A stretch of DNA of 38,252 bases, from positions 1 to 38,252 of the forward strand of contig JAHDBN010000021.1 of NCBI GenBank assembly GCA_020630335.1, given 5' to 3'. This document shows positions 99-9,389 of the stretch, piece after piece; position 1 is the first letter of the stretch, and each line of letters opens with the position of its first letter. Origin of the DNA: Bacteriovoracaceae bacterium. Lineage in GTDB: Bacteria > Bdellovibrionota > Bacteriovoracia > Bacteriovoracales > Bacteriovoracaceae. The position numbers and the translations under genes are program-made. Under the pieces are notes generated by a model that searched no databases, was not told the origin of the DNA, and worked only from the letters and a program-made list of their open reading frames with translations.

Positions 99-1559
99 TT
101 ATTTAACTCTTTTTAATACGAAAAAATGAAGGGCTATACCAAATAATGTAGAGATAAAAATATAAAGGTTTAATCCACTTGGAAGATCTTTCATAATAAA
201 AGCAAAAATTAATGGAAGGAACATCATTACTTTTGCTTGAGTTTTATCCATTCCTGTAGTTGGCGTGATTTTTTGTTGGGCAAACATAGCAAGGCCCATA
301 AGAACAGGTAAAATATAATAAGGATCTTTTTCACTTAAATCCTTTACCCACCCTATCCAAGGAGCATCTACTAATTCCACTGCATTGTACAAAACTTTAT
401 AGAAAGCAAAAAATATAGGCATTTGAAGTAACATGGGAAAACATCCACTTAATGGATTTGTTCCTGCTTTTTTAAAAAGCATCATGGTTTCTTTTTGCAT
501 TTTTGCTGGATCGTCTTTGTATTTCTTTTTAATCCTATCAATCTCAGGCTGAATTTTTTTCATTTTAGCCATATTCTTTGTAGATATGTATTGAAGAGGA
601 AAAGTTAAAAGTCTAATTAATAAGGTTAATAAAACTATCGCCCATCCCCAGTTTCCAATCATAGAGTAAAAGTATTGAAGACCTCTTAAAACTGGAATAG
701 CGATAATTGAGAAGAAACCAAAATCTACCGCAAAATGAAGATTTTTTCCGATTTTAATTAATTGATCGTATGTTTTTTTAACAAAAATAAATGAAGTATT
801 TTCTTTGATTGGAGTGATAATTTCAAACTGGCTTTCTATTTCTCCAGGCCTTGCTACGATTTTAGAAGGAGAATCCTTTCCTACTATTCTTGTTAGGGTG
901 TGATAATAATAATCATTTCCAAACCATTGAAGGTTTTCTTGAATACTTTCTTCATCTCCAATAGTTAACTCTTCAAGGTCACTTTTGTTTGTTAGGTAAG
1001 TAAATTTTGAAAAGTGCACATTATTTTTTTCCATACTTTTAGAAGGAAAAATATATTTTATATGGGTAAAGTTTACGTTTTTAGTAGTTTTAAAATTTAA
1101 TAAACCATTTTTTTCTAAAGATATATTAATGACGATATTTGGATTAGAAGCTGTAAAATTGTTTTCTGAGTTCTTAGTAATTGTAAAAATTTGTGGAGCT
1201 GAAATATTTCCTTGGATAAATTGAACTCTTTGAAGAAAACTATCTTGTTGAAAAAGTTCATTTGCCGAAGTGTTCTTATAGCTGGCTTTTTTAATATCTA
1301 ATCTGTTGTTAAGTTCGTATTTGAAATCTCCGCTATTGAAGCTAAAAAGCTCTTCTTTTTGATTTGGAGTGTTTTTAGGAGCTATTGGTTCTATAGGGGC
1401 AGCTGTATTGATTTTAGTACTCTTATTGGTTTCTTTTGTTGTTACTACTTCGTTTGTAACTTGAGTTTTTTTAGGAGGAGCAAAATAAAATTGCCAAGCA
1501 AATAAAATAATTCCAGATATTAATACTGCAGTCATGGCACGTGTTTGATCAGATTTCAT
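99..1559 (-). CDS. yidC: YidC membrane protein insertase
   Basis: Inner-membrane insertase/chaperone that folds proteins into the membrane alone or with SecYEG. The 486-aa protein has an N-terminal membrane segment (about residues 8-27), a low-complexity linker, a periplasmic domain (about 65-280) and the conserved C-terminal five-helix core. The core includes LLIRLLTFPLQ with the groove arginine at about 316, a charged cytoplasmic hairpin (about 328-365) and FPMLLQMPIFFAFYKVL. It ends in a short basic tail, KRVK. An AAAGGA ribosome site sits just before the ATG. It follows rnpA by 9 bases, the classic rpmH-rnpA-yidC order. The linker carries APIEP at residues 54-58, which is the protein copy of the repeated 14-bp DNA motif (see 1387-1400). 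Confidence 0.97.
   Translation of the reverse strand: MKSDQTRAMTAVLISGIILFAWQFYFAPPKKTQVTNEVVTTKETNKSTKINTAAPIEPIAPKNTPNQKEELFSFNSGDFKYELNNRLDIKKASYKNTSANELFQQDSFLQRVQFIQGNISAPQIFTITKNSENNFTASNPNIVINISLEKNGLLNFKTTKNVNFTHIKYIFPSKSMEKNNVHFSKFTYLTNKSDLEELTIGDEESIQENLQWFGNDYYYHTLTRIVGKDSPSKIVARPGEIESQFEIITPIKENTSFIFVKKTYDQLIKIGKNLHFAVDFGFFSIIAIPVLRGLQYFYSMIGNWGWAIVLLTLLIRLLTFPLQYISTKNMAKMKKIQPEIDRIKKKYKDDPAKMQKETMMLFKKAGTNPLSGCFPMLLQMPIFFAFYKVLYNAVELVDAPWIGWVKDLSEKDPYYILPVLMGLAMFAQQKITPTTGMDKTQAKVMMFLPLIFAFIMKDLPSGLNLYIFISTLFGIALHFFVLKRVK
1387..1400 (+). repeat. Origin-region 14-bp motif, copy 1 (in yidC)
   Basis: GGTTCTATAGGGGC. Read on the coding (minus) strand it encodes APIEP in the YidC linker. 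It is the only copy left of dnaA and matches the consensus GGTYCTATNGGRSC derived from the nine copies in this window. Confidence 0.8.
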
Positions 1560-1568
1560 TTTTTTCCT

Positions 1569-1904
1569 TTAATTAAAGAATAAATTTATGTTGTTCTTTA
1601 ATTTATAAAAATAATTTTCTTTTTTAGTTTTATTGAAATTAATTACAATGAGCGCATCATATCCTAAATGCTTATATTTTGATAATCTAAAAGATTCTTT
1701 AATTAATCTCTTGGTTTTATTTCTAAAAACTGCATTACCACATTTTCTAGAAACGCTTATGCCTATTCTTGAATGATTAAAATCATTTTTTTTGAAATAA
1801 ACTTTAAAAAGTTCGTTTGTTGTTGTTTGAGAGTTATCTCTTAAATTAGAAAAATCTTTTTTAGAAAGAAGTCTAAAAGCTTTTGGGAAATTACTTTTTT
1901 CCAA
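1569..1904 (-). CDS. rnpA: Ribonuclease P protein component
   Basis: Basic protein subunit of RNase P, which matures tRNA 5' ends. The recognisable domain begins [13 protein letters not shown] and includes the signature [20 protein letters not shown], followed by RLIKESFR, typical of RnpA. The frame is open upstream to an ATG at 1994, which would give 141 aa with an N-terminal 30 residues that merely read rpmH in another frame. I place the start at the TTG at 1904, giving 111 aa, close to the family length of about 115 and overlapping the rpmH 3' end by 14 bases. The start is uncertain; the longer form would be a Thermus-like rpmH/rnpA nested arrangement. Confidence 0.85.
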
Positions 1905-2040
1905 CGCTAACAGTAAGTCTCTTTCTTCCTTTTCTTCTTCTTCTTTTAATAACAGCTTGTCCGTCACCTGAAGACATTCTTTTAAGAAACCCATGAGTTT
2001 TTAATCTTTTACTTCTTTTTGGTTGATATGTTCTTTTCAT
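1891..2040 (-). CDS. rpmH: 50S ribosomal protein L34
   Basis: A 49-aa protein starting [19 protein letters not shown] and ending in a [18 protein letters not shown] tail, the full L34 pattern. It is a component of the large ribosomal subunit. The start ATG at 2040 is preceded by an AAGGT ribosome site. It is the first gene of the leftward rpmH-rnpA-yidC operon, divergent from dnaA, as in many bacteria at the origin. The rnpA frame opens inside it. Confidence 0.97.
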
Positions 2041-2174
2041 ATTTTTTACCTTAATAGATATCTTTTATTTGATAAAAGAAGTTAGCAAATTTAAGTTTTC
2101 GAGTCAATATGACATCTGCTAAGTTAAACATCCCTAAAGATTAGAGAAACTTTTAGTTAAAGGATTCATAACTA
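2041..2174. other. rpmH-dnaA intergenic region, candidate replication origin
   Basis: A very AT-rich 134-bp spacer between divergent rpmH and dnaA. Genes on both sides run away from it, as expected for an origin. I see no cluster of DnaA boxes in it; one DnaA-box-like 9-mer lies just inside dnaA at 2280. It also contains the rpmH promoter. Origin assignment rests on context only. Confidence 0.35.
2079..2107 (-). promoter_or_regulatory. Putative sigma-70 promoter of rpmH operon
   Basis: On the minus strand TTGACT (-35, 2107-2102) and TAACTT (-10, 2084-2079) are separated by 17 bases, with the -10 about 38 bases before the rpmH ATG. The -35 is near consensus and the -10 moderate. Predicted by eye only. 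Confidence 0.5.
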
Positions 2175-3770
2175 GTGACAAATAATAATTTTCCAATCGC
2201 AAACTTTCTAGATTCAAAAAGCTTAAGTAATGAAAATCATGAGGTTAACTCCTCATTTTCTGCACCGAGACAAAATCATTTTTCCACAAATGATTCATTT
2301 AACAAGGTAGAATTATCAGAGATTAGGTTAGAAATTTTAAGATCTATTCAAAAATTTGTTTCTACTGAAAAATTTGATGCCTTTTTCGCAAATTCTATGA
2401 TTATTGAATCCGTGAATAGCAATGAAATTGTTTTTTGCATAGCATCAGAGTTTAATAAAAAAATGATTCTTGAGTATTATTTTGAATTGCTTAAAAATTC
2501 AATTCAAGAGGTTCTTAAGAAAGAATATCAAATAAAATTTATAGTTTCTGGCCAAAAGTCTTCTTCCAACGCAGCTACTGTAGAGAAATCTAAAGTAGAA
2601 ATTTCTAATTCAGAATCAACTTACACTATTAATAAGGCCAAAACTGTTAAAAACATGTCTTTTAGCATAAATGATTTAAGGCCCAAAACTGAAGAAGTGA
2701 TGAGTGGGATTAACTCTAAATATATTGAAAGGACTCAAACCCCTAAAACTTTTCATCATGTAATTGATAAGAAAAAAACATTTGAATCATTTGTGGTTGG
2801 GCCATCAAATAATTTAGCTCATGCTTCTGCTACTGCTGTGTCTACCAGGCCAGGTGAAGTTTACAGTGCTTTATATGTTTACGGAGGATCTGGCTTAGGT
2901 AAAACTCACCTATTACATGCGATAGCTAATAAATTATTAAAAACAAAACCTAGTTTAAGAATAGACATAACTTCAGCTAATGATTTCATGTCTGAGATGA
3001 TTGATGCTTTTAAAAATAAAGACATTGTGAATTTTAGAAAGAGATATTATGAAAACATTGATGTTTTAATGATCGATGATATTCACATGATGAAGGATCG
3101 TTCTACGACACAAAATGAATTCTTCCATGTTTTTAACGAGCTTCAAAGAAGAAGAAAGCAGTTAGTTTTTACTTCAGACAAAGAACCTAAAGACATTACT
3201 GGTTTAGAAGATAGGATTAAAACTAGATTAAGCTCTTCTTTAGTTGTTGATATACAGCAACCAGATTTTGAAACGAGAGTTGCTATTTTGAAACAAAAAG
3301 CAACTGAAGAAAATATTTATATTCCAGATGATGTCATTGATCTTATTGCTTCTAATGTAAAATCAAATATTAGAGAACTTGAAGGATCTTTAATTAAATT
3401 AGGTGCATGTGCTTCTGTATTTAATATTGATATTGATCTTGAAATTGCCAAGGAGCAATTAAAAATAAATCCTGATAATCATCAAAAAACTGTAAACCTT
3501 GAAACAATTACAAAAACTGTTTCTAAATATTTAAATATCCCTGTTGCTGATATTAGATCTAGCGCTAGAAAAAAAGAAATTACTCTAGCGAGACATATTT
3601 CAATGTATTTTTCTTATTATATTGGAAGGTTTACTTATGTTCAGATAGGTGATTATTTTGGGAAAAGAGATCATACTTCTGTTATGCATGGAGTGAATAA
3701 GATTAAAGATCTTCAGAAAAAAGACACTGATTTTTCTAATAAACTTTACGAAATTGAAACTCAATTTTAA
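2175..3770 (+). CDS. dnaA: Chromosomal replication initiator DnaA
   Basis: Initiates replication by binding DnaA boxes and melting oriC. The 531-aa protein has an N-terminal domain I (about 45-110), a long low-complexity linker (about 115-190), and the AAA+ domain with Walker A GGSGLGKTH (about 236-244) and Walker B VLMIDDIH (about 297-304). The C-terminal domain IV carries the signature RDHTSVMHG (about 498-506). The linker is longer than in E. coli DnaA (467 aa). The start is GTG at 2175, 10 bases after AAAGGA. It is divergent from rpmH and followed after 51 bases by mnmE. Confidence 0.97.
   Translation: MTNNNFPIANFLDSKSLSNENHEVNSSFSAPRQNHFSTNDSFNKVELSEIRLEILRSIQKFVSTEKFDAFFANSMIIESVNSNEIVFCIASEFNKKMILEYYFELLKNSIQEVLKKEYQIKFIVSGQKSSSNAATVEKSKVEISNSESTYTINKAKTVKNMSFSINDLRPKTEEVMSGINSKYIERTQTPKTFHHVIDKKKTFESFVVGPSNNLAHASATAVSTRPGEVYSALYVYGGSGLGKTHLLHAIANKLLKTKPSLRIDITSANDFMSEMIDAFKNKDIVNFRKRYYENIDVLMIDDIHMMKDRSTTQNEFFHVFNELQRRRKQLVFTSDKEPKDITGLEDRIKTRLSSSLVVDIQQPDFETRVAILKQKATEENIYIPDDVIDLIASNVKSNIRELEGSLIKLGACASVFNIDIDLEIAKEQLKINPDNHQKTVNLETITKTVSKYLNIPVADIRSSARKKEITLARHISMYFSYYIGRFTYVQIGDYFGKRDHTSVMHGVNKIKDLQKKDTDFSNKLYEIETQF
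2280..2288 (+). other. Single DnaA-box-like site inside dnaA
   Basis: TTTTCCACA fits the relaxed bacterial DnaA-box pattern TTWTNCACA. It lies about 105 bases inside the dnaA coding region. It is alone, so it could be chance or an autoregulatory site. Confidence 0.3.
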
Positions 3771-3783
3771 GTAAATTACCTAT

Positions 3784-3797
3784 GGTTCTATCGGGGC
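3784..3797 (+). repeat. Origin-region 14-bp motif, copy 2 (dnaA-mnmE spacer)
   Basis: GGTTCTATCGGGGC, the only copy in non-coding DNA. It sits 13 bases after the dnaA stop and 24 bases before the mnmE ATG. Its presence outside genes shows that the motif is not just a protein repeat. Confidence 0.85.
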
Positions 3798-3809
3798 AGT
3801 CGTGCTAGA

Positions 3810-3821
3810 TTCTCGCGAGAA
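3810..3821. promoter_or_regulatory. Perfect 12-bp palindrome at mnmE start
   Basis: TTCTCGCGAGAA ends directly against the mnmE ATG and covers where a Shine-Dalgarno would sit (GCGAGAA). The central CGCG is unusual in this AT-rich window. It could be an operator or could form a small hairpin that limits translation. Function is inferred only. Confidence 0.4.
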
Positions 3822-5156
3822 ATGACTGACTATTTTGATAAATTCGATTCTATTATCGCTGTAAGTACTGGAAATTACTTTAAATCTGCAATTTCTGTAA
3901 TTAGAATTTCTGGTCCTATAGAACCAGATGCACTTCTCCCCTATTTAAGTTGTTCTGCCCCCATAGAACCAAGAAAAGCAATATTCACTAAACTGTTGAA
4001 CAATAATGAGACTTTAGATGAAATCGTTTTAACATATTTCAAAGGGCCTTCAAGTTTTACTGGAGAAAATGTCTTTGAGCTTTCTGTTCATGGAAACCCT
4101 ATAAATGTTAATAGAATCATTGATTTTCTAACTAAAGAGTTGAATTTAAGAAGTGCTGAAGCAGGTGAATTTTCTTATAGAGCACTAAGAAATAAGAAGC
4201 TTAGTTTAAACCAGATCGAGGGGCTAGATTTAATTTTAAGTTCTAATTCTGATTTTGCCATTTCTCAAGGCTTAAACCTTCTCTCTGGAGATGTGAATTC
4301 AGACTATACTGAAATTAAAAAAGCTTATTTATACCTATGTTCTACGCTAGAAGTAGTTATTAATTTTTCTGAAGATTTAGGTGAAAAAGAAGCATTTGAT
4401 ATATTCAAGGATAGCTTTGAATCATTTAAAAACTTGATTGAAAAGCTCAAGGAACGTGCCCCCATAGAACCAGAAATATTAATTAAGCCCAAGATAGTTC
4501 TTTATGGAAAGCCAAATTCTGGCAAAAGCACACTATTTAATAGATTACTTAAGAAGAAAAGATCTATTGTTTCTTCAACTGAAGGCACTACTAGAGATTA
4601 CATAGCAGATACTATTTCAATAAAAGGAGTATCTTTTGAGTTAATTGATACTGCTGGAATACGCTCTACTGAAGATGAAATTGAAGAAGCAGGAATTGAG
4701 TTTTCAAAAAATCTTTTAGATAAAGCATTTTTTAAAATACTTCTCACGAAAGATGATATTAAAGATGATTCTTTTGATTTAGTGATAAAAACCCATTCAG
4801 ACTTTGGTCCTATGGGACCACTTGAAGATCATGTATCGAGAATAAATGGTCCTATCGGGGCGAATCTTCTTGAAAAAAATACAGATTTTGATAACTTTGT
4901 TCTTAGCTCTATTATTAATAAATTTGAGATGAGCATAGAAAATAATCCTATAATAATACCAAGACATAACAAGATAATAAATGAACTTTACAATATTTCC
5001 AATAATTTCAATAACTTAGTTGATATTGAGTCTGATTTTGCAATACTTTCTTCTGAAGTTGGTTCTATGGGGGCATTATTAGAAGAGCTTATTGGTCAGG
5101 TAAAGTCTGATGATGTATTAGATAACATCTTTGCTAATTTTTGCATTGGAAAATAG
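3822..5156 (+). CDS. mnmE: tRNA modification GTPase MnmE (divergent)
   Basis: With MnmG it installs the 5-carboxymethylaminomethyl group on wobble U34 of tRNAs. The 444-aa protein has an N-terminal folate-binding-type domain (about 9-120, with RISG at 28-31), a helical domain, and an inserted G domain with P-loop GKPNSGKST (229-237), TTRD (256-259) and DTAG (276-279). The C-terminus is FCIGK with the conserved cysteine. Two features are odd. The usual glycine-rich GxGG loop near residue 17 reads GNYFKS. The expected NKxD guanine-specificity motif appears as THSD (324-327). Six copies of the repeated DNA motif lie in frame and encode GPIEP (31-35), APIEP (46-50 and 213-217), GPMGP (329-333), GPIGA (343-347) and GSMGA (414-418). 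It is followed closely by mnmG. Confidence 0.95.
   Translation: MTDYFDKFDSIIAVSTGNYFKSAISVIRISGPIEPDALLPYLSCSAPIEPRKAIFTKLLNNNETLDEIVLTYFKGPSSFTGENVFELSVHGNPINVNRIIDFLTKELNLRSAEAGEFSYRALRNKKLSLNQIEGLDLILSSNSDFAISQGLNLLSGDVNSDYTEIKKAYLYLCSTLEVVINFSEDLGEKEAFDIFKDSFESFKNLIEKLKERAPIEPEILIKPKIVLYGKPNSGKSTLFNRLLKKKRSIVSSTEGTTRDYIADTISIKGVSFELIDTAGIRSTEDEIEEAGIEFSKNLLDKAFFKILLTKDDIKDDSFDLVIKTHSDFGPMGPLEDHVSRINGPIGANLLEKNTDFDNFVLSSIINKFEMSIENNPIIIPRHNKIINELYNISNNFNNLVDIESDFAILSSEVGSMGALLEELIGQVKSDDVLDNIFANFCIGK
3912..3925 (-). repeat. Origin-region 14-bp motif, copy 3 (mnmE)
   Basis: GGTCCTATAGAACC on the plus strand; the reverse complement GGTTCTATAGGACC fits the consensus. It is the most symmetric copy, palindromic except at position 4. 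It encodes GPIEP (MnmE residues 31-35). Confidence 0.85.
3957..3970 (-). repeat. Origin-region 14-bp motif, copy 4 (mnmE)
   Basis: GCCCCCATAGAACC on the plus strand, i.e. GGTTCTATGGGGGC on the minus strand. It starts 45 bases after copy 3 and encodes APIEP (residues 46-50). Confidence 0.85.
4458..4471 (-). repeat. Origin-region 14-bp motif, copy 5 (mnmE)
   Basis: Identical to copy 4 over all 14 bases, 501 bases downstream. It encodes APIEP (residues 213-217), just before the G domain. Confidence 0.85.
4806..4819 (+). repeat. Origin-region 14-bp motif, copy 6 (mnmE)
   Basis: GGTCCTATGGGACC, with dyad-symmetric outer arms (GGTCC/GGACC). It encodes GPMGP (residues 329-333), just after the aberrant G4 position. 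Confidence 0.85.
4848..4861 (+). repeat. Origin-region 14-bp motif, copy 7 (mnmE)
   Basis: GGTCCTATCGGGGC, starting 42 bases after copy 6. It encodes GPIGA (residues 343-347). Confidence 0.85.
5061..5074 (+). repeat. Origin-region 14-bp motif, copy 8 (mnmE)
   Basis: GGTTCTATGGGGGC, the same sequence as copies 4 and 5 in the opposite orientation. It encodes GSMGA (residues 414-418). It lies 84 bases before parS site 1. Confidence 0.85.
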
Positions 5157-5157
5157 T

Positions 5158-5173
5158 TGTTCCACGTGGAACA
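5158..5173. promoter_or_regulatory. parS: parS centromere site 1
   Basis: TGTTCCACGTGGAACA is a perfect 16-bp palindrome matching the well-known chromosomal parS form bound by ParB. It sits in the 23-bp mnmE-mnmG junction, and parA-parB lie 2.5 kb downstream. ParB would load here and spread to organise the origin region. Confidence 0.93.
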
Positions 5174-5179
5174 TTTGAG

Positions 5180-7024
5180 ATGAATATGTACGATATTATA
5201 GTTATTGGTGGAGGACATGCAGGAGTTGAGGCTTGTCATATCGCTAGTAAATTTAAATTAAAAGTTGCTCTAATAACATTAGAGTCTGTTCCTATTGGAT
5301 CTGCTCCATGTAACCCATCTATTGGTGGGATTGGAAAAGGACAAGTTGCCAGGGAAATCGACTGTATGGGTGGCTTAATGGGCAAGCTTGCTGATTCTGC
5401 TGGAATACAATATAGAATTCTCAATGAATCTAAAGGGTACGCTGTTCAGTCCACGAGGGTTCAGATAGATAAAGACTTATATGCAATAAATGCCGAGGAA
5501 TCAATTAAGCTAATACCTAATATTGATATAATTAAAGAAAAGGTAATCTCTATAGATAAAGTTAATGATTTTAAAGTTATTACTGAAAAAAATGAATATA
5601 TATCAAAAAAATTAATCTTAACTGTAGGAACATTTCTAAATGGAAAGCTTCATATGGGAAAAGAGACATTTGAAGGTGGAAGGATAGATTCTGAAAATTC
5701 TGAAGGGTTAGAAGATATATTTTCAAATATTAAAATTAGAAATATTAGATTTAAAACAGGAACTCCTCCTCGTATTTTAAAAAGATCTATTGATTTCTCT
5801 AAGCTAATTGAGCAGAAATCAGATCCAAAAGCTATAAATTTTCATCTTTTAAATGATAATCAAAGAAAAATAGATCAACTATCGTGTTATCTAACTCATA
5901 CTAATCAGAAAACAATAGATATAATAAGTGAAAACAAAGAACTTTCTCCTATGTATAATGGTCAAATAGAAGGAACTGGAGCAAGGTATTGCCCAAGTAT
6001 AGAAGATAAGGTTTTTAGGTATCCAGAAAAAAGCAATCATCACATTTTTGTAGAACCAGAAGGTTTAAATACAGATCTTTACTACCCTAGTGGAATTTCT
6101 AGTTCTCTTCCTAAGAAAATACAAGATGAATTTATTAAAACGATAAATGGATTAGAAAATTCCGAAATATCTAAGTATGGATATGCTGTTGAATATGATG
6201 TTATTGATACAACTTATTTAAATTCAGGACTTGAGCATTCAGAAATACCAGGACTTCACTTCGCAGGCCAGGTAAATGGTACTTCTGGTTATGAAGAAGC
6301 TGCTGGGCAAGGATTAATAGCAGGAATTTACGCTTCTATGGTTCTATCGGGGCAAGATCCTATAAAACTATCTAGAGAAGACTCTTATATAGGAGTAATG
6401 ATTCAGGATTTAATTACAAATACAAGAGATGAGCCTTATAGATTGTTTACATCAAGATCAGAGAATAGACTTTCTATAAGAGAAGACAACTGTCATTTAA
6501 GAATGAAGAAATACAGAGATTTATTAAATATTAATGATGAATTTGATGAATATTTAAATATTTTGGAAGATGAGTTTTTATGTTTGAGTAAATTCTGCGA
6601 TGAAACAAGTGTTTCTTTAGATAATATATCTAAATACAATGATGAACTAGCTAAGGTTTTTAAAAAATTAGAGAAGAAAATCTTTATTTCAGATATTTTA
6701 AAGGTCCCTACTGTAGATCCAGTAGATTTTCTTAATTATATAACTAATCAATGTAAAATTTCTTTTAATTTTAGATCTATTAGAACTGCAGCTATATCTA
6801 AAAAATACGAGGGTTATATTAAAAAGCATGATGTTTACACTAGAAAGATTCAAAAAGTTGATAGAATGAACATAGATCTCAATAAAATGCTAAATTCTAG
6901 TAATATATCTTTTGAGTGCAAGCAAAGAATCAAAAAATCTAGACCTGAAACTTTTAAAGATTTAAAAAATATAAATGGAATAAGACAAGCAACATTAGCT
7001 GTTGTTGCTAGTGGTGTTTATTAA
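5180..7024 (+). CDS. mnmG: tRNA uridine 5-carboxymethylaminomethyl modification enzyme MnmG (GidA)
   Basis: FAD-dependent partner of MnmE in tRNA wobble-U34 modification. The protein (614 aa from this start) begins MNMYDIIVIGGGHAGVEAC with the dinucleotide-binding glycines. It contains NPSIGGIGKGQ, GTFLNGKLHMG, GTPPR and GYEEAAGQGLIAG, all typical of MnmG. The frame is open upstream to an ATG at 5141, but that would overlap mnmE and translate parS (VPRGT), so I prefer ATG 5180; ATG 5186 is also possible. A copy of the 14-bp motif lies at 6340-6353, in a different codon frame from those in mnmE. The gene overlaps rsmG by one base. Confidence 0.95.
   Translation: MNMYDIIVIGGGHAGVEACHIASKFKLKVALITLESVPIGSAPCNPSIGGIGKGQVAREIDCMGGLMGKLADSAGIQYRILNESKGYAVQSTRVQIDKDLYAINAEESIKLIPNIDIIKEKVISIDKVNDFKVITEKNEYISKKLILTVGTFLNGKLHMGKETFEGGRIDSENSEGLEDIFSNIKIRNIRFKTGTPPRILKRSIDFSKLIEQKSDPKAINFHLLNDNQRKIDQLSCYLTHTNQKTIDIISENKELSPMYNGQIEGTGARYCPSIEDKVFRYPEKSNHHIFVEPEGLNTDLYYPSGISSSLPKKIQDEFIKTINGLENSEISKYGYAVEYDVIDTTYLNSGLEHSEIPGLHFAGQVNGTSGYEEAAGQGLIAGIYASMVLSGQDPIKLSREDSYIGVMIQDLITNTRDEPYRLFTSRSENRLSIREDNCHLRMKKYRDLLNINDEFDEYLNILEDEFLCLSKFCDETSVSLDNISKYNDELAKVFKKLEKKIFISDILKVPTVDPVDFLNYITNQCKISFNFRSIRTAAISKKYEGYIKKHDVYTRKIQKVDRMNIDLNKMLNSSNISFECKQRIKKSRPETFKDLKNINGIRQATLAVVASGVY
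6340..6353 (+). repeat. Origin-region 14-bp motif, copy 9 (mnmG)
   Basis: GGTTCTATCGGGGC, identical to copy 2 and sharing flanks (CTATGG before the common part, A after). Here the reading frame is shifted, giving V-L-S-G-Q rather than the P-I-E-P-type tag. This argues for selection on DNA rather than on protein. Confidence 0.85.
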
Positions 7025-7641
7025 TGAGTAAATTAGAAAAATTTTCTAAAGATTATCTAGAAATATTAAACACAGATCTTAAGGGTTTAAATTTAACAAG
7101 GATAGTTTCTCTAGAAGATTTTCAGGTTAAACAGGTAGAAGATTCTTTATTTCCTTTAGAAATAATCCCTGAAATATTTAAGAATTCTAAAAGAGTTATT
7201 GACCTAGGTTTTGGTGGAGGATTTCCTATTCTTCCCTTGGCCTTAGAACTAGAAGATAAATTGTTCATTGGACTTGAAGCAAGAAAGAAAAAAGTTGATG
7301 CCGTTAGACTTATAGCCAATAGGTTAAATATAAAGAACGTAACTGTTTATCATACAAGATATCAAGATTTTCACTATGAAAGCGGAGATCTTATAATCAG
7401 CAAAGCTATGGATAAGGCCCATAGCGTTATTAATCAAATTAAAACCAAGGAAGATGTAAGCATTTGTTTTTATAAAGGACCTAAATTTTTTACAATAGAG
7501 CAACCATTACTGAAGACAATTGATAAAAAATGGGAGAATATGTTTTTAAAAGAATACGAACTTTCCACTGGAGACAAAAGAGTTTTCGTGGGTTATAAAA
7601 ATGTTCCACGTGGAACAAAGAAAAATAAGAGAAAAGATTAA
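7024..7641 (+). CDS. rsmG: 16S rRNA (guanine527-N7)-methyltransferase RsmG (GidB)
   Basis: SAM-dependent methyltransferase acting on G527 of 16S rRNA. At 205 aa it is close to the family length. Motif I is RVIDLGFGGGFPILPLAL (about 57-74), where the usual PG is PI; the downstream LEARKKKVDAVR is characteristic. Its ATG overlaps the mnmG TAA (coupled translation, no clear Shine-Dalgarno). The 3' end encodes NVPRGT (193-198) because parS site 2 lies within the coding sequence, followed by a lysine-rich tail. Confidence 0.93.
   Translation: MSKLEKFSKDYLEILNTDLKGLNLTRIVSLEDFQVKQVEDSLFPLEIIPEIFKNSKRVIDLGFGGGFPILPLALELEDKLFIGLEARKKKVDAVRLIANRLNIKNVTVYHTRYQDFHYESGDLIISKAMDKAHSVINQIKTKEDVSICFYKGPKFFTIEQPLLKTIDKKWENMFLKEYELSTGDKRVFVGYKNVPRGTKKNKRKD
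7602..7617. promoter_or_regulatory. parS: parS centromere site 2 (inside rsmG)
   Basis: A second perfect TGTTCCACGTGGAACA, 2444 bases from site 1. It lies within the last codons of rsmG and ends 27 bases before the parA ATG. Besides segregation, ParB bound here could repress parAB. Confidence 0.93.
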
Positions 7642-7644
7642 CGC

Positions 7645-8460
7645 ATGGCAAAAATTATTTCTATTTCAAATCAAAAGGGTGGAGTTGGAAAAACAACTAC
7701 TGCTATTAACTTAGCAGCTTGTTTAGCAGCAGCTGAAAGAAAAACTCTTATACTTGATCTTGATCCTCAGGGAAATGCTAGTTCGGGACTGGGCGTAGAT
7801 AAAAATATTTTCAAAGATTCAAATATTTATCATGCACTTATAGGTAATAAAGATATAAGACAAACAATTTATCAAACAGACTTAGAGATGCTTGATATTT
7901 GTCCTTCGGATAATAATTTAATCGGTGCTGAGATTGAGCTTGTAAGTGAAATTGCAAGAGAGTCAAAACTTAAGATGGCCTTAGAAAAAGTTAGATCTGA
8001 GTATGAATTTATTATTATAGATTGTCCGCCATCACTTGGTTTGTTAACCGTAAATGCTTTGAACGCGAGTGATAGTTATATTGTTCCATTACAAACTGAA
8101 TATTTTGCAATGGAAGGCCTTTCTCAATTACTTCAAACTATTAGATTGGTAAAAACTTCTTTAAATCCAAAGATTGAACTTGAAGGAATTTTATTAACAA
8201 TGTTTGATGGTAGAACAAGTTTATCAAGACAAGTTGCAGAAGAAATTTGTACTCACTTTGAAGGAAAAGTTTTCAATTCAATCATCCCGAGAAATATTAA
8301 ATTAAGTGAGTCACCAAGTTTTGGTAAGCCAATTATTTTATACGATATTAATTCAAAAGGAAGTGCTAGTTATTTATCACTTACGAAAGAATTATTACTT
8401 AAAAATTTAAAGAATAACGATAGTCAAAAAGATTTATTATCAGAAATGGGTACATATTAG
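7645..8460 (+). CDS. parA: Chromosome-partitioning ATPase ParA (Soj)
   Basis: Walker-type ATPase that moves ParB-parS complexes and so segregates origins. It has 271 aa, with deviant Walker A NQKGGVGKTT (about 8-17), LDLDPQGNASSGLG (about 37-50) and Walker B IIIDCPPSLGLLTVNAL, all canonical. The start lies 3 bases after the rsmG stop; no strong Shine-Dalgarno is visible, so it may be translationally coupled. parB follows after 8 bases. Confidence 0.96.
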   Translation: MAKIISISNQKGGVGKTTTAINLAACLAAAERKTLILDLDPQGNASSGLGVDKNIFKDSNIYHALIGNKDIRQTIYQTDLEMLDICPSDNNLIGAEIELVSEIARESKLKMALEKVRSEYEFIIIDCPPSLGLLTVNALNASDSYIVPLQTEYFAMEGLSQLLQTIRLVKTSLNPKIELEGILLTMFDGRTSLSRQVAEEICTHFEGKVFNSIIPRNIKLSESPSFGKPIILYDINSKGSASYLSLTKELLLKNLKNNDSQKDLLSEMGTY

Positions 8461-8468
8461 GAGTTATA

Positions 8469-9389
8469 ATGACTAAAAAGTCAGTGCTAGGTAAGGGTAT
8501 TGGTGCATTGTTAAATACAAGTATTGCAACACCTACAACAAATAATTTTCAAAAAACAAAAAAAGAAAAAGTTTCAAGTGATATAGAATTAAAAAACTCT
8601 GAAACTTCTTTAGTTCCAATTTCAAAAATTAAACCAAACGTTGATCAACCAAGAAGAGTTTTTAGAAATGAAGACATCGAAGAACTTGCTGCTTCGATTA
8701 AAGAAAATGGAATCATCCAACCTTTAATTGTTACCTTTGATGAAGATGATAAAAAATTTGAAATAATTGCAGGGGAGAGAAGATTTAGAGCTGCTAAAAA
8801 AATTGGACTTGATCAAGTTCCAGTTTTTATTAAAAGAGTTACGAAAAAAGAAAAATTGGCAATGGCCATTATTGAAAATATTCAAAGAGCTGATTTAAAT
8901 TGTGTTGAAGAAGCATTGGCTTATTTTCAATTAATTGATGAGTATAATTTAACTCAAGATCAAGTAGCTACAACTGTTGGAAAGAGTAGATCATCTATTG
9001 CGAACACTTTAAGAGTTCTGAGGCTTCCAAAAGAGGTCCTTGTTATGCTTCAAAAAGAAGAGTTAAGCTTTGGACATGCTAAAATCTTGATCGGTCTTAA
9101 AGATGAAAAGAAGATTCAAGATTTAGCTAAGAGTTGTTTGAAGAATGAATGGTCTGTTAAGCAATTATCGGATCACTTGAATCCTAAAAAAGAAGTTAAG
9201 CAAAAAACTAAATCAAAAAACACTAAAAAGCATGACGAGAAACTTGACGCACTTAGACAAAAACTTGAAAGGCAGACTGGCTTTCACTTTGAAATTAAGA
9301 GCAATGAGAAAGATAAAGGTAAGATTGCTATTAAGTTTAGTGATAAAGAAGAATTCAATACAATTTATCAATTTCTCTTAGATCTTTAA
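8469..9389 (+). CDS. parB: Chromosome-partitioning protein ParB (Spo0J)
   Basis: CTP-dependent clamp that loads at parS. The 306-aa protein has a basic N-terminus with GKGIGALL (ParA-interacting region), the CTPase/nuclease-like domain with GERRFRA (102-108) and ENIQRADLN (136-144), a helix-turn-helix with DQVATTVGKSRSSIANTLRVLRL (about 164-186), a lysine-rich linker and a C-terminal dimerisation region. A strong AGGAG precedes the ATG. The cognate sites are the two parS palindromes at 5158 and 7602. Its sequence gives no reason to think it also reads the 14-bp motif. Confidence 0.96.
   Translation: MTKKSVLGKGIGALLNTSIATPTTNNFQKTKKEKVSSDIELKNSETSLVPISKIKPNVDQPRRVFRNEDIEELAASIKENGIIQPLIVTFDEDDKKFEIIAGERRFRAAKKIGLDQVPVFIKRVTKKEKLAMAIIENIQRADLNCVEEALAYFQLIDEYNLTQDQVATTVGKSRSSIANTLRVLRLPKEVLVMLQKEELSFGHAKILIGLKDEKKIQDLAKSCLKNEWSVKQLSDHLNPKKEVKQKTKSKNTKKHDEKLDALRQKLERQTGFHFEIKSNEKDKGKIAIKFSDKEEFNTIYQFLLDL

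Follow-up and report, generated by a model that had tools for sequence, protein, structure and literature searches.

The window is the whole stretch of DNA that was analysed (38,252 nucleotides from a Bacteriovoracaceae bacterium). It includes yidC and rnpA (on the minus strand), dnaA, mnmE, mnmG, rsmG, parA, and parB. The gene mnmE (3822..5156, + strand), which hosts most of the array described below, encodes TrmE_N, helical, and GTPase domains. parA (7645..8460, +) encodes the canonical chromosomal ParA1, and parB (8469..9389, +) encodes the canonical ParB1, which has the ordinary parS-contact residues. Canonical parS sites (TGTTCCACGTGGAACA, with no strand assigned) lie at the mnmE-mnmG junction (5158..5173) and at the 3' end of rsmG (7602..7617).

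Nine copies of another 16-bp site span 1386-6354, and six of these are within mnmE (3911-5075). A search for TGGTYCTATVGRRSCA found 8 exact positions in the window and a ninth with one mismatch. Given the base composition, the expected number of exact matches is 0.0003 for the window and 0.02 for the whole genome. Outside the window, the 2.36-Mb genome has just two further exact positions (versus the 0.02 expected). Each of these isolated sites (1501-1516 of locus L009, on contig C31, and 1501-1516 of locus L010, on contig C38) is in frame within a long open frame and encodes ASIGP.

The yidC copy (1386..1401, +; TGGTTCTATAGGGGCA, asymmetric) lies in a minus-strand gene and encodes APIEP in a linker. 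Another copy (3783..3798, +; TGGTTCTATCGGGGCA, asymmetric) is non-coding and is between dnaA and mnmE. Within mnmE, copy 1 (3911..3926, +) is symmetric (TGGTCCTATAGAACCA) and encodes GPIEP; copies 2 (3956..3971, -) and 3 (4457..4472, -) are asymmetric, with TGGTTCTATGGGGGCA on the minus strand, and both encode APIEP; copy 4 (4805..4820, +) is near-symmetric (TGGTCCTATGGGACCA) and encodes GPMGP; and copies 5 (4847..4862, +; TGGTCCTATCGGGGCG) and 6 (5060..5075, +; TGGTTCTATGGGGGCA) are asymmetric and encode GPIGA and GSMGA. The mnmG copy (6339..6354, +; TGGTTCTATCGGGGCA, asymmetric) is in a frame that would carry TAG; its central C avoids the stop, and it encodes VLSGQ. An earlier note on this stretch had claimed that the six mnmE copies are in frame and encode these six pentapeptides, that the yidC copy gives APIEP, that the mnmG copy gives V-L-S-G-Q in another frame, and that one copy is non-coding. 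All of these claims held in full.

Across the family, the consensus of 189 near-symmetric copies from 41 loci is TGGTYCTATAGRACCA, which is a 16-bp palindrome. Only the Y/R step varies freely, and G is found at position 3 in essentially every one of these copies. Another 76 of the 265 sites (~29%) belong to an asymmetric class, TGGTYCTATVGGGGCA, which predominates in the window. The site itself is either such a palindrome or a derivative of one. Because it is palindromic, inversion keeps the phase, and the same type of peptide results from either orientation of the DNA: GPIEP from one strand is GSIGP from the other. (The earlier note had claimed that the peptide type was independent of orientation, which held; the palindrome refines it.) Copies are mostly 24 or 27 bp apart in genes and mostly 22-37 bp apart outside of genes. 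We rejected helical phasing of the copies, as the spacings follow no 10.5-bp rule.

The pentapeptides are a by-product of conserved DNA sites

We searched proteins for G[PS]I[EG]P, which is blind to the DNA, and then read the codons. Among the 141 copies that we found, GGT was used in 140, ATA in 140, and CCA in 134, while P/S and E/G vary. As background, ATA accounts for 23% of the isoleucine codons in the genes concerned. These copies are not independent, because of the expansion of tandem arrays, but they are drawn from many genera. We also considered a single orthologous site, mnmE copy 2, which is shared by 10 genomes. There, ATA GAA CCA is constant in 10 of 10, while a single codon is kept in just 5 of 120 invariant amino-acid columns elsewhere.

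The same site is found in several genes with differing peptides (GPIEP/APIEP, SYRT, or VLSGQ). In mnmG, copies are either read in another frame (SYRT) or escape TAG through their centre (VLSGQ). Of the copies in the TAG-bearing frame, all five have a change that eliminates the stop; coding forces this, and it is not independent evidence. In mnmE, the alternatives to the observed frame are one with TAG and one that encodes W/R-S-Y-R-T, which explains why the observed frame is favoured. In other words, the frame bias in mnmE follows from what the protein tolerates, selection acts on the DNA, and the pentapeptides are a by-product of the DNA sites that are kept.

Within MnmE, 153 of 171 copies are between the G4 and G5 motifs. 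Six outgroup MnmE proteins mostly have gaps in these columns, which makes the array chiefly a loop inserted into the GTPase domain. A few copies are in a variable N-terminal loop. In the window, copy 4 is at the start of the G4-G5 insertion, which holds the tandem array in relatives. The earlier note had argued that a coding gene acts here as a cis-acting array, and had proposed checking whether the tags fall at variable loops or insertions. It had also stated that conserved peptides with varied synonymous bases would refute selection on DNA. The codon and alignment checks support its view, the tags are mostly in the insertion, and the opposite of the refuting outcome was seen.

Two other features of these MnmE proteins stood out. 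Just before the insertion, the G4 motif is [TS]HxD or a close variant instead of NKxD in the family members that were displayed (loci L111-L148); in the window, it is at 4780-4805 (about residues 320-328 of MnmE). It is possible that the nucleotide specificity of the family's MnmE differs. Also, the window's MnmE (3822-5156) scores below both NCBIfam cut-offs for MnmE (242 vs. 252.6 bits and 275 vs. 380 bits), and automatic annotation might overlook it.

A family-wide array beside the replication origin

Exact matches to the site are present in 122 of 129 Bacteriovoracaceae genomes, including all 73 of the high-quality ones. In the rest of the phylum, 9 of 240 genomes have a single site each, which is near the control rate. 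The site is a family-wide feature of the Bacteriovoracaceae. In nine well-assembled genomes from the family, 53 of the 55 near-matches (at most 1 mismatch) are at dnaA-mnmE-parAB, and in each genome these occupy one origin stretch of 1.4-9 kb. The two exceptions are single hits with one mismatch.

In relatives (40 fetched regions), the usual gene order is dnaA (reverse), rnpA, yidC, mnmE, mnmG, rsmG, parA, parB. In the window's genus, dnaA is oriented towards mnmE, with yidC-rnpA facing away (99-3770 of the window). Most of the family instead has dnaA beyond rnpA-yidC-mnmE, on the opposite side, which means that a local rearrangement has taken place at the origin.

In relatives, the sites are mostly in mnmE, with 24- or 27-bp spacing and up to 11 copies. 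Others are in the linker of yidC, the N-terminal linker of parB, mnmG, or downstream of parB. In 26 of 38 regions, sites are found both upstream of mnmG and from parB onward, so that they flank canonical parS and parAB. In nearly all genomes, about 0.1-5 kb separates the sites from canonical parS and parAB, and canonical parS and ParB1 coexist with the array. In one region (L143), the main array of five sites is non-coding; it occupies the space between mnmE and mnmG, and successive sites are spaced at 27, 29, 27, and 29 bp. In genus g43 (genome G115), the sites are few and weak. Overall, the array, which consists of 16-bp parS-like sites clustered beside the replication origin, is kept for its DNA sequence.

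We also considered a phage source for the site and rejected it. The palindrome is present in 60 IMG/VR contigs, which is about the chance level (by a rough estimate). The only contig with two copies (L222) is a phage, and its copies (1961-2012) are in a collagen-like protein with GPIGP repeats, which is a coincidence.

ParB2 and the comparison with known sites

The array site resembles parS (TGTTYCACGTGRAACA), the site of chromosomal ParB/Spo0J, in that both are 16-bp palindromes with several copies near oriC that may sit within genes. The half-site of the array is TGGTYCTA, as compared to TGTTYCAC for parS. T, G, T, Y, and C are common to both, so 5 of the 8 positions are kept and 3 are changed. 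In the published numbering, parS is G1 T2 T3 Y4 C5 A6 C7 and the array site is G1 G2 T3 Y4 C5 T6 A7; that is, T2 is changed to G, A6 to T, and C7 to A. The array clusters near oriC as canonical parS does, but it does not match the parS consensus. Also unlike parS, it forms tandem arrays of up to about 11 copies, and it is found beside perfect canonical parS rather than replacing it.

Which protein might read the array? The window's genome encodes exactly two ParB_N proteins, ParB1 in the window and a second, ParB2, outside it (G000:C26:13221-14033, or L051:1384-2199). The parB2 gene is directly downstream of a second parA, and the two form one operon (L051:598-1371 and 1384-2199); the pair is also found in genomes G067, G043, and G115. 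ParB2 is present in 119 of 129 genomes from the family and in 0 of 240 others from the phylum. The sole high-quality genome without it is G071, where parA2 is cut at a contig end. We rejected a true absence there in favour of an assembly gap.

ParB2 belongs to the ParB/Spo0J superfamily, with a ParB_N domain, CTP-binding motifs, and a helix-turn-helix. Its sequence matches structures of ParB, Spo0J, and Noc (best E = 1.7e-17), and the top matches of its predicted fold (model pLDDT of 78) are to Noc. It scores 52.5 bits against PF02195 and 82 bits against TIGR00180 (cut-off 58.45), while HTH_ParB is just below the Pfam cut-off (21 vs. 22.6). The GERR motif is invariant.

We compared ParB2 to the DNA contacts that were mapped in Caulobacter ParB and in Noc (PMC7383237). 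G170 and S172 are kept; E162, V/I171, K173, and R178 are present; and an ungapped alignment gives Y201 and L204. Across the aligned ParB2 sequences, there is no variation at the positions equivalent to 162, 173, and 178. These contact residues are unlike those of both ParB and Noc, while ParB1 retains the ordinary contacts. From sequence alone, ParB2 appears to have a third specificity, and the array sites resemble parS altered at three positions in each half-site. Both the site and the helix of ParB2 are nearly invariant across the family. We also looked for plasmid relatives of ParB2 that adjoin the same site, and found only weak ParB matches (identity of about 27-33% among those listed).

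A close parallel to the proposed ParB2 system is Noc and its site NBS in Bacillus: Noc is a paralogue of ParB with a re-specified recognition helix, and NBS is a palindrome derived from parS. parS and NBS differ at half-site positions 1 and 6, with A1 and C6 in NBS (PMC7383237). The full NBS string is A1 T2 T3 T4 C5 C6 C7; this, like the full parS string, is general background. The base changes differ: the array site has G1 and T6, while in NBS T2 is retained and the departures from parS are at positions 1 and 6. ParB2 is not a member of the Noc family (88 bits vs. the TIGR04285 cut-off of 315), and it lacks the Noc specificity set of Q173, K179, K184, and R201 (PMC7383237), having K173, C/S/A179, and Y201 (ungapped) instead. 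Unlike Noc, ParB2 is paired with a parA gene. NBS sites are spread over the chromosome, outside the terminus. In contrast, the array sites are confined to the origin region.

As a ParABS system, ParA2-ParB2 and the array meet the expectation that parA and parB share an operon, but not that the cognate site is near that operon. About 0.37-0.42 Mb separates the operon from the array (in G043, G004, and G104), and no copy of the site was found near it, unlike at typical parABS loci.

In the same phylum, Bdellovibrio bacteriovorus also has two canonical parS near ori, and DNA that flanks parS blocks the formation of ParB foci in non-replicating cells, via an unidentified factor (PMC10547168). We did not find the array or ParB2 in any other family of the phylum (240 genomes), so the flanking factor in Bdellovibrio is not the same factor. 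The Bdellovibrio case nonetheless shows that the surroundings of parS matter in this phylum. In the papers that we searched, we found no description of the array or ParB2, and nothing linking Bacteriovorax with ParB and parS or Halobacteriovorax with MnmE.

Candidate readers of the array

We propose that the array is read by ParB2, the family-specific second ParB with an altered recognition helix. This is likely, but it is an inference and there is no binding data. In this view, each palindrome would be a loading point for a CTP-bound ParB2 dimer, which would act as a clamp and slide over the origin DNA. Together with ParA2, it would form a second complex that segregates or organises the origin and that flanks the canonical centromere, with the sites in mnmE and yidC on one side and those within parB and downstream of it on the other.

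There are several caveats. The co-occurrence of ParB2 with the site is a single phylogenetic event and would fit any family-specific protein. The asymmetric sites (~29%) are not explained by a simple symmetric dimer. The weak arrays of g43 are not explained either, given that the helix of ParB2 is unchanged there. And a match to parS at 5 of 8 half-site positions is only mildly unlikely by chance.

A bolder reading is that this is a family-wide second system for origin segregation or insulation. It would comprise ParA2-ParB2 and a third class of site, beside parS and NBS, in an array that flanks canonical parS-parAB and that mnmE carries in frame, as an insertion in the part encoding the GTPase domain. 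We lean slightly towards this reading; binding and segregation are inferred. Sequence cannot discriminate between origin segregation, insulation of the canonical partition complex, and a role like nucleoid occlusion.

A rival that remains possible is that this is an origin site that is read at the DNA level by another protein, such as a replication regulator, a nucleoid-associated protein, or an unrecognised repressor. In its favour, the array is beside dnaA, no copy is near parA2-parB2, asymmetric variants exist, and the co-occurrence with ParB2 reflects one event. Against it, the site is a dyad of 16 bp, as long as parS, and it matches parS at 5 of 8 half-site positions; also, the family has a ParB paralogue with a changed recognition helix, with the same taxonomic range, and otherwise without a known site.

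It is unlikely that the canonical ParB1 uses the sites as secondary targets. Their proximity to canonical parS and parAB (about 0.1-5 kb in nearly all genomes) would fit. However, ParB1 retains the ordinary contacts, and perfect canonical parS persists in these genomes; the half-site departs from parS at 3 of 8 positions, among them position 6, which is one of the two differences between parS and NBS (PMC7383237); and the array is missing from families with ordinary ParB1.

Even less likely is a mobile or selfish palindromic repeat that spreads in frame. Rickettsia palindromic elements are palindromic DNA that is read in frame in protein-coding genes, and they are dispersed. The array is similar in having in-frame insertions in coding genes, with tandem expansion at 24- or 27-bp periods. 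But its conservation is limited to 16 bp, the copies are confined to one origin region rather than dispersed (in nine genomes), and sites are kept orthologously across genera.

Selection for the GPIEP-type peptide, as a tag or as a loop of MnmE, is all but excluded: the peptide does recur, with as many as 11 copies in a single MnmE, but synonymous sites are frozen while P/S, E/G, and G/A vary, the array in L143 is non-coding, and the peptides in mnmG differ.

The parS-like nature of the site, its range across the family, and ParB2 as its probable reader go beyond the earlier note. The phylum includes predatory bacteria with non-binary fission, in which the cell-cycle control of ParB/parS is unresolved. 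In the Bacteriovoracaceae, the gene for a conserved tRNA modification enzyme, mnmE, has come to carry a centromere-like array, and selection on the DNA overrides the choice of codons. If ParB2 does read this array, then two ParB specificities would serve one chromosome at one origin, which would be a natural test of how recognition by ParB evolves and of how sliding-clamp systems coexist.
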